Shown: positions 4,528 to 10,204 of the stretch, piece after piece
Layout of the letters: each line of letters starts with the position of its first letter
How positions within the stretch are numbered: position 1 is the stretch's first letter
Assembly: GCA_031254385.1 (NCBI GenBank)
Contig: JAIRUO010000082.1
Coordinates: 1 to 10,283 of the forward strand
Length of the DNA stretch: 10,283 nt
From: Treponema sp.
GTDB lineage: Bacteria > Spirochaetota > Spirochaetia > Treponematales > Breznakiellaceae
Reading direction: 5' to 3'
Position numbers and translations under genes: made by a program
The notes under the pieces: generated by a model
What the model was told of the DNA's origin: nothing
The model's database searches: none
What the model saw: only the letters and a program-made list of their open reading frames with translations

Positions 4528-5199
4528 TTGAAGGTATTGATTTTCATTTTCCGGCTGGTTCTTATTCTGGCCGCCGCAGGCCTTATTACTACTCTTATTA
4601 TTAATATTGCCATGGTTAAAAGCATGGAAAAATATATTTACACTGATATAAATGATATTCCTTTCCGGGCAACGGTAATGGTACTTGGCGCACAGACCAG
4701 GGGCACAACGCTTTCGCCGGTTTTGCGTGACCGGGTAAACGGAGGAATAGCCCTGATGCGGGCGGGAAAGGGAGATAAACTGCTCCTCTCTGGAGATCAT
4801 GGGCAGCTTTATTATGATGAAGTCAATGCAATGCGTCTCTATGTATTAGACAATGCCCCGGAGATTCTGCACGAAGATATTTTTATGGATCATGCTGGTT
4901 TTAATACTTGGGATTCCATGTACCGCGCAAGGGATGTTTTTGAGGTAAAAGAACTCTTAATAGTAACCCAGGAATTCCATATTAGCCGGGCGGTCTGCAT
5001 GGCCCGCAGCCTTGGGATAGACGCGGTTGGTTACGGGCTTACCGAAGATCATTTTGGGAAAATAAATTTGCAGGCATGGAGAACTAGGGAATTTCTTGCG
5101 CGTATTAAGGCTGTATATTCAATTATATTCAACATACAACCCAAGTATCTGGGGGATATAATCCCCATATCCGGCGACGGCCGCGCCACCTGGATATAG
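4528..5199 (+). CDS. SanA/YdcF family (DUF218) membrane-anchored protein
   Basis: Proteins of this family have one N-terminal membrane anchor and an extracytoplasmic DUF218 domain; E. coli SanA affects envelope barrier function and vancomycin exclusion, but its biochemical activity is not established. Here residues 2-25 or so (KVLIFIFRLVLILAAAGLI) form a hydrophobic anchor after a single Lys. The DUF218 core follows with MVLGAQ, the RDRVNGGIALMRAGK helix, LLLSGD, the HAGFNTWDSMYRARDVF segment (SanA has DYAGFRTLDSIVRTRKVF there), and VTQEFHISRA. The length of 223 residues is normal. I chose TTG at 4528 over the in-frame TTG at 4513 because of GGAGAA at 4519 and because it puts a Lys directly before the hydrophobic stretch. 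Its promoter region is shared with the divergent nuclease gene, and it converges with rlmB. Family assignment is firm; orthology to sanA is likely. Confidence 0.88.
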   Translation: MKVLIFIFRLVLILAAAGLITTLIINIAMVKSMEKYIYTDINDIPFRATVMVLGAQTRGTTLSPVLRDRVNGGIALMRAGKGDKLLLSGDHGQLYYDEVNAMRLYVLDNAPEILHEDIFMDHAGFNTWDSMYRARDVFEVKELLIVTQEFHISRAVCMARSLGIDAVGYGLTEDHFGKINLQAWRTREFLARIKAVYSIIFNIQPKYLGDIIPISGDGRATWI

Positions 5200-7546: not shown

Positions 7547-9292
7547 TTACCTCAATAGAACCCCTTCCCAGGGAAGCAGGGTTCCGTTCAGTTCCGTGCG
7601 ATCAGCGGTAGAGACAAGCACCGCGCCGATCAAACAGGTAGCGGTCTTTTGAGGCAGTTTGGCTATGAATGAAGAAAAGTTAAGCGCTACCGTATAAACT
7701 TCGTCCCCCAATGTACGCCGATAAAGCATAAGGCGATCATCGGCGTAGAGAGGCACAAATTCGCCGAATTTAAGACATTCGGTTTTTTTCCGCAGGGCGA
7801 TAAGGCTCTTGTAGAAATTCAAAATCGAAGCGGGATCGTTTTTTTGGGATTCATAATTTATATACTTATGATTGGCGTTTACACCGAGCCAGGGCTTTAC
7901 CTTGCTAAAGCCCGCGTTCTCTCCGGCAGTCCATTGCATTGGCGTCCGGGCGTTGTCGCGGGAGCTAGCTTTGATCCACTTCCAGCGTAAAAAGCCGGGT
8001 ATGTGCAATTTTTTCATCAGTTTATCCAGGCCGTGGCTTTCGACATCGTTCACTTCTTTAAGGCTCTTAAAATCGAAATTGTTCATGCCAATTTCTTGGC
8101 CCTGATAAATAAAGGGCGTGCCACGGAGGGTCAGTTCCAGAAGAGCCAGCATTTTTGCGCTCTGTTCCCGATATTTCCCGGCATCGCCGAAATGGGAAAC
8201 GATACGGCTCTGGTCGTGGTTTTCCAGATACAGGGCATTCCACTGGAGGCCCTGCTGCCACTTGGTTAAAACTTCAAGGAGTTTTGAGGCCCGAAACTTT
8301 TTGGGGATGAAGCGGGCGATGCGGCGATCTATCTCAAGGTGCTCAAAATAAAAAAGCATATCCAATTCTCTGCGGCTTTCGTCGCAGAGGAGTTTTGCCT
8401 CGTCAAGGTCAACCATGACGGTTTCGCCTACGGTAAAGCAGTCGTAATGATCCAGCAGGTCCCGGCGCAATTCCCGCAGTGTGGCGTGGTTCCCCTCCTG
8501 GCCCTTGTAGTGCTCAATACCCCGGACGGCCATACTTTTCTTGCCGTCCTCAAGACTTGTTTTGTAGATGATGTTAATCACATCGCAGCGGAAACCTGCG
8601 GCGCCTTTATCCAGCCAGAAGCGGAGTATCTTTTTTATTTCTTCGATTACTTTAGGATTTTTGTAATTAAGGTCAGGCTGCTTTTTATCAAAAAGGTGCA
8701 GATAATACTCGCCGCTTTTTTCGTCATACTCCCAGACCTCGCCCATAAAAAAGCCCGTCCAGTTATTGGGGGGCCGCCTTGCTTTAGGCGGCAGGGAGGC
8801 CGCTGGTTCTATAGTTTTAGCTGGAGTTTTTGCAATGCAAAAACTCCGAGCTGAAAAATGGCACGGAAGCCATTTTTCAGCACCTTCTTGCCGAGGCGGG
8901 CACCATATATAGTAATCCCGGTAAGGACTCGCGGGGTCCCGGCTTTTCTGAAACCACTCGTGCTCATCGGAAGTATGGTTTATCACCATATCCATGATGA
9001 TTTTTATATCCCGCTTCGCAGCTTCGGCAAAAAGCCTTTCCATGTCCGCCATGGTCCCGAACTTGGGATCAATGGAATAATAATCGCTGATATCGTAGCC
9101 GTTATCCGCATCCGGCGATTTATACACAGGCGAAAGCCAGATGATGCCCGCGCCCAGGTCTTTGATTTCGTCCAGCCGCGAGATGATCCCCGGAATATCG
9201 CCTATGCCATCATTGGCTGTTTTGCCAGAATCCTGAAAACTGCGGGGATATATCTGGTATGCGATACGGTCTTTCCACCAAGGGTGCATCAT
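7547..9292 (-). CDS. GH13 alpha-glucosidase, oligo-1,6-glucosidase type, with in-frame insertion
   Basis: A family GH13 enzyme that releases glucose from the non-reducing end of short alpha-glucans, probably in the cytoplasm since no signal peptide is seen. The 581-residue protein has the family signatures in order: WWKDRIAYQIYPRSF (5-19), DMVINHTSDEH (101-111), QPDLN (205-209), GFRCDVIN with nucleophile D237 (233-240), TVGET with acid/base E290, LENHDQSR with D360 (357-364) and RTPMQWT (449-455). Val238 after the nucleophile and the QPDLN motif are, in this subfamily, typical of alpha-1,6 specificity. Two things are odd. Residues 138-172 are an extra stretch of about 35 residues between YRDYYIW and PPNNW, encoded by a hairpin-rich element. 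The Ca-binding-type loop near 21-32 reads DSGKTANDGIGD, three residues longer than the usual DSNGDGIGD. Start is ATG at 9290-9292 or the adjacent ATG at 9287-9289; neither has a Shine-Dalgarno sequence. Family certain, substrate inferred. Confidence 0.93.
   Translation of the reverse strand: MMHPWWKDRIAYQIYPRSFQDSGKTANDGIGDIPGIISRLDEIKDLGAGIIWLSPVYKSPDADNGYDISDYYSIDPKFGTMADMERLFAEAAKRDIKIIMDMVINHTSDEHEWFQKSRDPASPYRDYYIWCPPRQEGAEKWLPCHFSARSFCIAKTPAKTIEPAASLPPKARRPPNNWTGFFMGEVWEYDEKSGEYYLHLFDKKQPDLNYKNPKVIEEIKKILRFWLDKGAAGFRCDVINIIYKTSLEDGKKSMAVRGIEHYKGQEGNHATLRELRRDLLDHYDCFTVGETVMVDLDEAKLLCDESRRELDMLFYFEHLEIDRRIARFIPKKFRASKLLEVLTKWQQGLQWNALYLENHDQSRIVSHFGDAGKYREQSAKMLALLELTLRGTPFIYQGQEIGMNNFDFKSLKEVNDVESHGLDKLMKKLHIPGFLRWKWIKASSRDNARTPMQWTAGENAGFSKVKPWLGVNANHKYINYESQKNDPASILNFYKSLIALRKKTECLKFGEFVPLYADDRLMLYRRTLGDEVYTVALNFSSFIAKLPQKTATCLIGAVLVSTADRTELNGTLLPWEGVLLR
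8773..8881 (-). repeat. Triple-hairpin palindromic element inserted in frame in the GH13 gene
   Basis: Three adjoining inverted repeats fill this stretch. GCCGCCT and AGGCGGC form 7-bp arms at 8773-8779 and 8786-8792. GGAGTTTTTGCA and TGCAAAAACTCC form 12-bp arms around a single A at 8823-8847, extended to 8819-8852 by flanking AGCT copies with one bulged G. GCTGAAAAATGGC and GCCATTTTTCAGC form 13-bp arms with a 6-base loop at 8850-8881. The second and third palindromes share three bases. The block coincides with the protein segment that has no counterpart in related glucosidases (residues 138-172), and its reading frame is open throughout. Boundaries are uncertain by a few bases, and I see no clear target duplication. 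A mobile or dispersed palindromic element is inferred; the palindromes themselves are exact. Confidence 0.75.
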
Positions 9293-10078: not shown

Positions 10079-10204
10079 CCGCCGGTATGGGAATCCGCCC
10101 ATTCAGGCCGACAGTTGCGTGGCATTTCTTTACGCAGGCTCTGGCCTGGCATTTTCCTTCTCACGCAAAGCGTCCTTCATGGGCACCCGTTCCCATACCG
10201 GCGG
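10079..10204 (+). ncRNA. Candidate structured RNA or palindromic repeat element, unidentified
   Basis: The stretch is closed by a perfect 15-bp inverted repeat, CCGCCGGTATGGGAA at 10079-10093 and its reverse complement at 10190-10204. Inside, more pairings can be nested: GCCCAT with ATGGGC, TTGCGTG with CACGCAA, and a central hairpin CAGGC-TCTG-GCCTG. This gives one long rod with internal loops. It lacks the marks I would require for SRP RNA (GGAA loop with GGAAGCA), tRNA, tmRNA or RNase P RNA; 6S RNA is conceivable from the rod shape, but the length of about 126 bases is short. There is no T run after the right arm, so it is not a simple terminator. Strand is assigned from the upstream promoter. 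A dispersed repeat that is not a functional RNA remains equally possible. Confidence 0.4.

Follow-up and report, generated by a model that had tools for sequence, protein, structure and literature searches.

The extra segment of the GH13 alpha-glucosidase encoded in this Treponema contig is a copy of TD-2, which is very probably a non-autonomous mobile palindrome of about 98 bp and three hairpins; it would be dispersed over Treponema genomes and their phages and would at times settle within a gene, in a frame left open. The window (the whole stretch of DNA analysed, 10,283 nucleotides) contains ffh, genes for a PDDEXK-domain protein, a DUF218 protein and a SpoU methylase, uxaC, the GH13 alpha-glucosidase gene, and a phosphate propanoyltransferase gene. 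The minus strand of the element encodes approximately residues 136-169 of the glucosidase, in frame. As the initial annotation had stated, no stop is introduced by the palindromic segment, and the ORF is open over 581 codons. The gene, the element and its hairpins are located in Table 1. The window also holds a perfect 15-bp inverted repeat at 10079-10204; its arms, CCGCCGGTATGGGAA and TTCCCATACCGGCGG, are separated by 96 bases, and it is not part of any ORF of at least 100 codons.

Table 1. Location of the TD-2 element, its hairpins and the host gene in the window
Feature	Position	Strand	Description
GH13 alpha-glucosidase gene holding the insert	7547..9292	minus	581-codon ORF; PF00128, E 2.4e-137
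TD-2 element (Rfam RF03162)	8787..8885	plus, antisense to the glucosidase gene	64.0 bits; gathering threshold 48.7
Extra inverted repeat GCCGCCT/AGGCGGC	8773..8792	plus	7-bp arms; overlaps HP1; outside the family consensus
HP1	8788..8803	plus	GCGGC-AGGGAG-GCCGC; 5-bp stem, loop AGGGAG (ANGGAN type); from the sequence, alignments A2 and Rfam
HP2, central hairpin	8823..8847	plus	12-bp arms GGAGTTTTTGCA/TGCAAAAACTCC; 23-base core in 81 genome stretches
HP3	8850..8881	plus	13-bp arms, loop ACGGAA (ANGGAN type); alignments A2, A4 and A5

The initial annotation gave the element no family name; it is in fact a member of an already catalogued family, the TD-2 RNA (RF03162, clan CL00124). The match covers the full length of the model (positions 1-98) with an E value of 1.4e-9 for 501 bases, its covariance score lies above the 48.7-bit threshold, and the sequence and three-hairpin structure are those of the family. 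TD-2 is entered in Rfam as a small RNA gene, whereas the window copy is part of an ORF, to which it is antisense and in frame, and the family has the dispersed pattern of an apparently mobile repeat. The folding energy of positions 8760-8900 is far below that of shuffled sequences (z -7.2, 0 of 200 shuffles as low). Three adjoining perfect hairpins had been described at this place; HP2 and HP3 are indeed perfect and the palindrome at 8773-8792 is real, but the first hairpin of the family is HP1. A covariance model (R1), for which 26 copies including that of the window were used, detected a single copy in the window, at 8781-8890 (110.2 bits); a weak reverse-strand match falls on the same copy. 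Elsewhere in the Rfam scan, L304, a phage stretch, has nine TD-2 matches, L184 has three, and the viral contig stretch L082 has one. The family is said to have been discovered by Weinberg et al. in 2017 (NAR). By titles and abstracts, no paper on the TD-2 family was found in the open-licence PMC literature, and none on a TD-2 repeat in the PMC literature on Treponema repeats and coding palindromes; the available parts of PMC7160235 and PMC2864571 contain nothing on TD-2.

Comparison with homologs confirmed that the glucosidase carries an extra segment. Thirteen GH13 homologs, the best ones from genomes reached via Treponema and Spirochaetaceae loci, were aligned; all 13 lack the 136-169 region, which was found in the window protein alone and falls between YYIW and PNNW in the alignment, the conserved stretches between which it had been placed. 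One natural homolog lacking the insert, P0002, is 78% identical. In a protein search 7992 relatives were scored, and 120 listed homologs, including the window protein, were used; loop length could be measured with a motif pattern in 118 of them, the other 2 remaining unmeasured. The loop has 43 residues in the window protein versus 1-25 in all 117 other measured listed homologs, 55 of which have 12 residues. Because the loop is longer than these and the aligned homologs lack the segment, the insert is placed at about 30 residues near 136-169, in place of the "about 35 residues (138-172)" first proposed. A word-based search of limited reach, with residues 128-178 against 5.8 billion proteins, returned only the window protein.

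The glucosidase loop is hypervariable among homologs, spanning those 1-25 residues, as would be expected if an ordinary low-complexity loop had expanded and become palindromic by chance. With a 64-bit TD-2 covariance match and the same element in many other genomes, such an origin is hardly credible. The AlphaFold2 model of the window protein is weak (mean pLDDT 64), with residues 132-171 among the parts below 50. This is compatible with a disordered loop, and the model is too weak to bear the earlier suggestion that the insert lies near the active-site cleft. At this site, some native codons were replaced by the element.

The following course of events is proposed. TD-2 would spread through Treponema and phages, mostly into intergenic places, and would occasionally land inside a gene, where a copy would survive only in a frame left open and in a tolerant place. 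The glucosidase copy would sit in a hypervariable loop and encode about 30 extra residues; the added loop would probably be flexible, exposed at the surface, and of little or mildly negative effect. The glucosidase is presumably made, folded and active, and the extra loop is presumably neutral.

The unit recurs in relatives, as a mobile element should: many Treponema genomes have intergenic copies, and several have copies within genes. Genic copies are a minority of TD-2 copies. In-frame copies that are absent from homologs, as in the palindromic elements of Rickettsia, were found in the GH13 gene, a phage adaptor gene, a 527-codon phage gene and an AAA-ATPase/PDDEXK gene. A similar peptide, PCxF..SFCxAKTPAK..AAS, is encoded in one frame in three unrelated ORF types. 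Treponema vincentii has TD-2 in an AAA-ATPase_like/PDDEXK_9 protein, there in sense orientation, and also in a paralog of that protein with 77% identity; all 10 examined homologs from other Treponema lack it. A TerB_N/TerB_C protein in the genome G003 has TD-2 in a variable linker, unseen in 28 homologs with sequence there; since the linker of the closest homolog (L245) is unrelated and of similar length, replacement is as likely as addition at this site.

Further candidate genic copies are found in a lysine-rich protein (L310), in lipoprotein-like ORFs (L019 and L044), and at the end of a prohead protease (L195). In L019 (1-1413) and L044 (4090-5307) the element is N-terminal and HP3 encodes a hydrophobic stretch before a cysteine (LITAWMLLLSNC; ITALGIALLCAGC), and TD-2 may donate the core of a signal peptide to these ORFs. 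In L007, from a Treponema MAG, the large-chain ORF of a carbamoyl-phosphate synthase includes an HP2-type palindrome in frame, at positions 934-956. Its match to the TD-2-type model is weak (28 bits), so that this may be a coding palindrome of a different kind. Among 36 canonical copies the SFC frame is open in 5 of 5 genic copies versus 11 of 31 others. This comparison was rejected as evidence because it is circular: any copy within an ORF is open by necessity. In addition, L019, one of the five, is read on the opposite strand.

Palindromic elements of Rickettsia and coding palindromes of Wolbachia were reportedly described by Ogata et al. in 2000, 2002 and 2005. In the available parts of two papers, the Rickettsia palindromic elements (RPEs) are palindromic repeats of 105-146 bp, located between genes and in frame in unrelated proteins (PMC2229807, PMC2996958). 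TD-2 likewise is palindromic and occurs both in intergenic places and in frame inside unrelated proteins, but it belongs to another phylum, consists of three separate hairpins with a conserved loop motif and wide stem variation, and is present in phages. The initial idea of an RPE-like element tolerated at the protein level is thus supported by the dispersed copies, by in-frame copies in several genes, and by homologous sites without the element.

A second comparison is offered by intragenic REPs of the GTAG and CGTC super-families. According to the part of the source available, some are located wholly inside ORFs, with dimers or groups encoding 20-30 residues, and some supply stop codons to flanking ORFs (PMC3733652). 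TD-2 resembles them as a short palindrome sometimes located inside ORFs, but no GTAG or CGTC foot was seen on inspection of the TD-2 consensus (alignment A2). In addition, the genomes richest in TD-2 have no consistent Y1 (RAYT-type) transposase. A Y1_Tnp match was found in 119 of 195 genomes but was absent from 5 of the 7 richest (those with at least 19 candidates); many of the genomes are MAGs and may be incomplete. No transposase could be tied to TD-2, and no clear link to mobilisation by RAYT was seen. TD-2 presumably moves by the action of some enzyme.

The distribution of the element was examined at several levels. In the genome collection, 81 stretches contain the HP2 core pattern GAGTTTTTGCANNGCAAAAACTC, and 77 of the 80 listed loci have Treponema or Spirochaet- titles. 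Among 82 exact core copies with full flanks, hairpins with GGA loops are present on both sides in 43, on one side in 13 and on neither in 26; of the 43, 42 show one polarity only and one has an extra signal on the other strand. The flanks of the core copies show a composite unit, and the HP2 core is not always TD-2. With R1, for which no more than 19 candidates were scored in any genome, matches were found in 122 of 195 genomes belonging to one family. The Rfam model had 128 matches at E up to 0.001 in the complete genome of T. vincentii (G035, which contains L002), with 129 candidates scored; the 120 listed ones above the cut-off were taken as T. vincentii copies. Copies are sparse in G011, G008 and G018, three of the closest genomes, since arbitrary contig stretches of these genomes (568,607 bases) contained only three strong matches. 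The Rfam TD-2 model had no match in any of 14 control genomes.

TD-2 is not known to extend beyond Treponema and its relatives. A match above the cut-off was also found in L004, a contig of a MAG titled Helicobacteraceae (G036), beside Treponema-type phage genes; either the contig is misbinned or a phage has crossed. In G010 and G014, two of the expanded genomes, there is a TD-2 subfamily (for example at L034 and L029) with an extra conserved tail, GCAGCGCAAGGGATTGAAG, that adjoins HP3 and extends beyond the Rfam model. Of 95 T. vincentii copies with fetched context, 92 lie outside called ORFs and 3 inside, and one of these three ORFs looks truncated by the element: at L373 3269-3640, a 124-codon ORF enters a TD-2 copy and stops shortly beyond that point.

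Filled and empty homologous sites are found in phages. Of the 195 genomes, 48 have a match to the phage head-tail adaptor (phrog_442). Among 16 aligned homologs, including the query, the element is present at one site in 4 and absent in 12. Two of the 12 hold other inserts at that site: L236 1015-1617 (G065:C16) has 6 residues with an 8-bp-arm palindrome (GGGACCCC/GGGGTCCC), and L241 1132-1785 (G011:C46) has an 18-residue stretch rich in lysine, arginine and glutamate. The insertion site looks generally permissive. Here too, some native codons were replaced by the element. A second adaptor site carries TD-2 in two loci of one genome (L009, L308). Two genes beyond the adaptor in the same phage operon, a 527-codon gene without a Pfam or PHROG match contains TD-2 in G013, whereas the G178 ortholog lacks it. 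When L304, L309, L025, L307, L082 and L284 are aligned to this gene, 28-34 positions are gaps. Such sites without the element in relatives support an inserted mobile element over an ordinary loop.

In the G178 phage, eight gene junctions within the interval from 2.9 to 9.7 kb hold a TD-2 copy. All are in one orientation, and each copy overlaps or follows a stop codon and ends just before the next start. Three of these junctions were compared with the G013 phage, in which the genes overlap or abut without an element; at a fourth (L184 5800, L304 6094) the element is present in both phages. Within L304 4848-4975, a TD-2 copy at 4862 stands between similar gene starts (MSIKWEKWQ before, MHINWTSLMQ after) and the counterpart in L184 has one gene start, which gives the impression that insertion duplicated the next gene's start or left it behind. 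A clean target-site duplication of TD-2 was not found. The contig with the TD-2-rich phage block also has a 6A RNA (RF02925) above the Rfam gathering threshold, at L304 18467-18517.

The arrangement in G178 could be taken to indicate a gene-end element (a terminator, a stabiliser of mRNA 3' ends or a phage gene boundary) selected at junctions, with the in-gene copy as an accident. The stem of HP3 has an A-tract and a T-tract, and a terminator scan of the G178 region gave 15 sites, several of them in elements, versus 6.5 +/- 2.5 in shuffled sequences. The G013 phage, however, has no element at the three homologous junctions, and some G178 junctions also lack it, with none between 5523 and 5802. 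Moreover, among 92 intergenic T. vincentii copies, 51 have their HP3 side towards the 3' end of a gene and 41 towards a gene start, which is no clear preference. Selection at gene ends is therefore considered quite improbable as the origin of the family. Copies at gene ends in one orientation, seen in one phage, also recall integron attC sites; this reading was rejected, since at three junctions of the related phage the same genes occur with no element, and paired attC boxes were not seen by inspection.

Orientation was counted on the basis of simple ORF calls. In the mixed loci (97 model hits), the TD-2 strand is antisense to codirectional neighbours in 32 cases and sense in 7; the ratio is 29:7 after removal of three duplicate loci (p 0.0003) and 21:7 when L304, L306 and L318 are counted once (p 0.013). 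Inside called ORFs, many of which are short or spurious, the ratio is 16:7. The remainder comprises 6 convergent and 5 divergent positions, with 24 contig-edge rows left out; L304 4480 was counted as convergent in this set owing to a spurious ORF. No bias was found in T. vincentii (27:24, with 24 convergent, 17 divergent and 3 inside ORFs).

The stems vary widely and remain paired. Among 87 T. vincentii copies (85 distinct), paired cells make up 98.1%, and 27 of 29 pairs show changes in both partners. The 67 distinct copies taken from other genomes have 98.6% paired cells, and 25 of 29 pairs show such changes. These alignments were fitted to the model, and pairing falls to 31-48% when the partners are slid by 1-3 columns. 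In the four insert-bearing adaptor genes, some pairs have changed on both sides although the protein is altered, and in the L185 copy one HP1 pair is broken. This suggests that pairing is kept by a process at the DNA level, such as hairpin recognition, template switching or exchange between copies. The loops are nearly invariant: in T. vincentii, 86 of 87 HP1 loops and as many of the 87 HP3 loops contain A(N)GGA, and in the 67 other copies the motif is found in 61 HP1 and 65 HP3 loops.

Imperfectly paired cells also carry a strand signal. On the TD-2 strand, G-U outnumbers A-C by 37:13 (p 0.0009) and by 27:10 (p 0.008). With a reverse-complement model, which is biased the opposite way, the excess persists at 38:20 (p 0.025) and, at the borderline, 22:10 (p 0.05); with the best 87 rows in T. 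vincentii under this model it is not significant (28:17, p 0.135). The slight excess is weak evidence of some constraint at the RNA level. Together with the conserved loops it suggests a constraint that a purely selfish repeat would not need.

TD-2 could accordingly be viewed as a working small RNA, the glucosidase copy being a functional antisense or trans-acting RNA gene that overlaps the enzyme gene. Its Rfam type (Gene; sRNA), the 98% pairing with changes on both sides, the loops and the G-U excess under both models would all suit such a role. Covariation alone was rejected as proof of an RNA, as template switching can also keep palindromes. G-U cells make up 1.1-3.8% of paired cells by hairpin in T. 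vincentii, which we take as low for an RNA under structural selection, and some 120 copies in that genome without orientation bias, together with presence and absence between related phages, look like a repeat and not like a gene. A small RNA gene within the glucosidase gene thus seems unlikely.

The loops nevertheless provide a lead, and the strongest open alternative is that the TD-2 strand may have an RNA function. An ANGGAN hexaloop of CsrA/RsmE type closed by C-G is present in most TD-2 loops, the exceptions including AGGA loops shorter by one base, and we take C-ANGGAN-G to equal the optimal CsrA/RsmE site. The hairpins might thus be predicted CsrA/RsmE sites, with the dispersed copies acting as CsrA decoys or as regulators of neighbouring transcripts. 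The near-constant A(N)GGA loops would agree with this, as would the G-U excess on the ANGGA strand. CsrA was found in 170 of 195 genomes, and its co-occurrence is uninformative because it is nearly everywhere. In the mixed loci with codirectional neighbours, the ANGGA strand mostly runs against the flanking genes (the 29:7 above), which speaks against such a role, and the glucosidase mRNA has no CsrA-type site, because the loops read UCC in that mRNA. Decoys or local regulators of this kind appear very unlikely. A broader version, in which TD-2 would be a transposable RNA element selected as RNA, with two CsrA-type ANGGAN hairpins per copy, whose spread over Treponema chromosomes and late operons of phages rewires or titrates a global post-transcriptional regulator and whose in-frame copies are by-products, is also given little probability beside the mobile palindrome.

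A small RNA family of Rfam that behaves as a dispersed, locally high-copy palindrome, able to lie within protein genes, means that TD-2 hits in Treponema need a different annotation. The present case adds, in another phylum, palindromes fused in frame into genes, of the kind best known from Rickettsia, and offers homologous filled and empty sites in phages together with a cellular enzyme that can be assayed. Variable stems with fixed palindromy and loops make it testable whether a DNA mechanism, such as hairpin recognition or template switching, or selection on RNA keeps these repeats.
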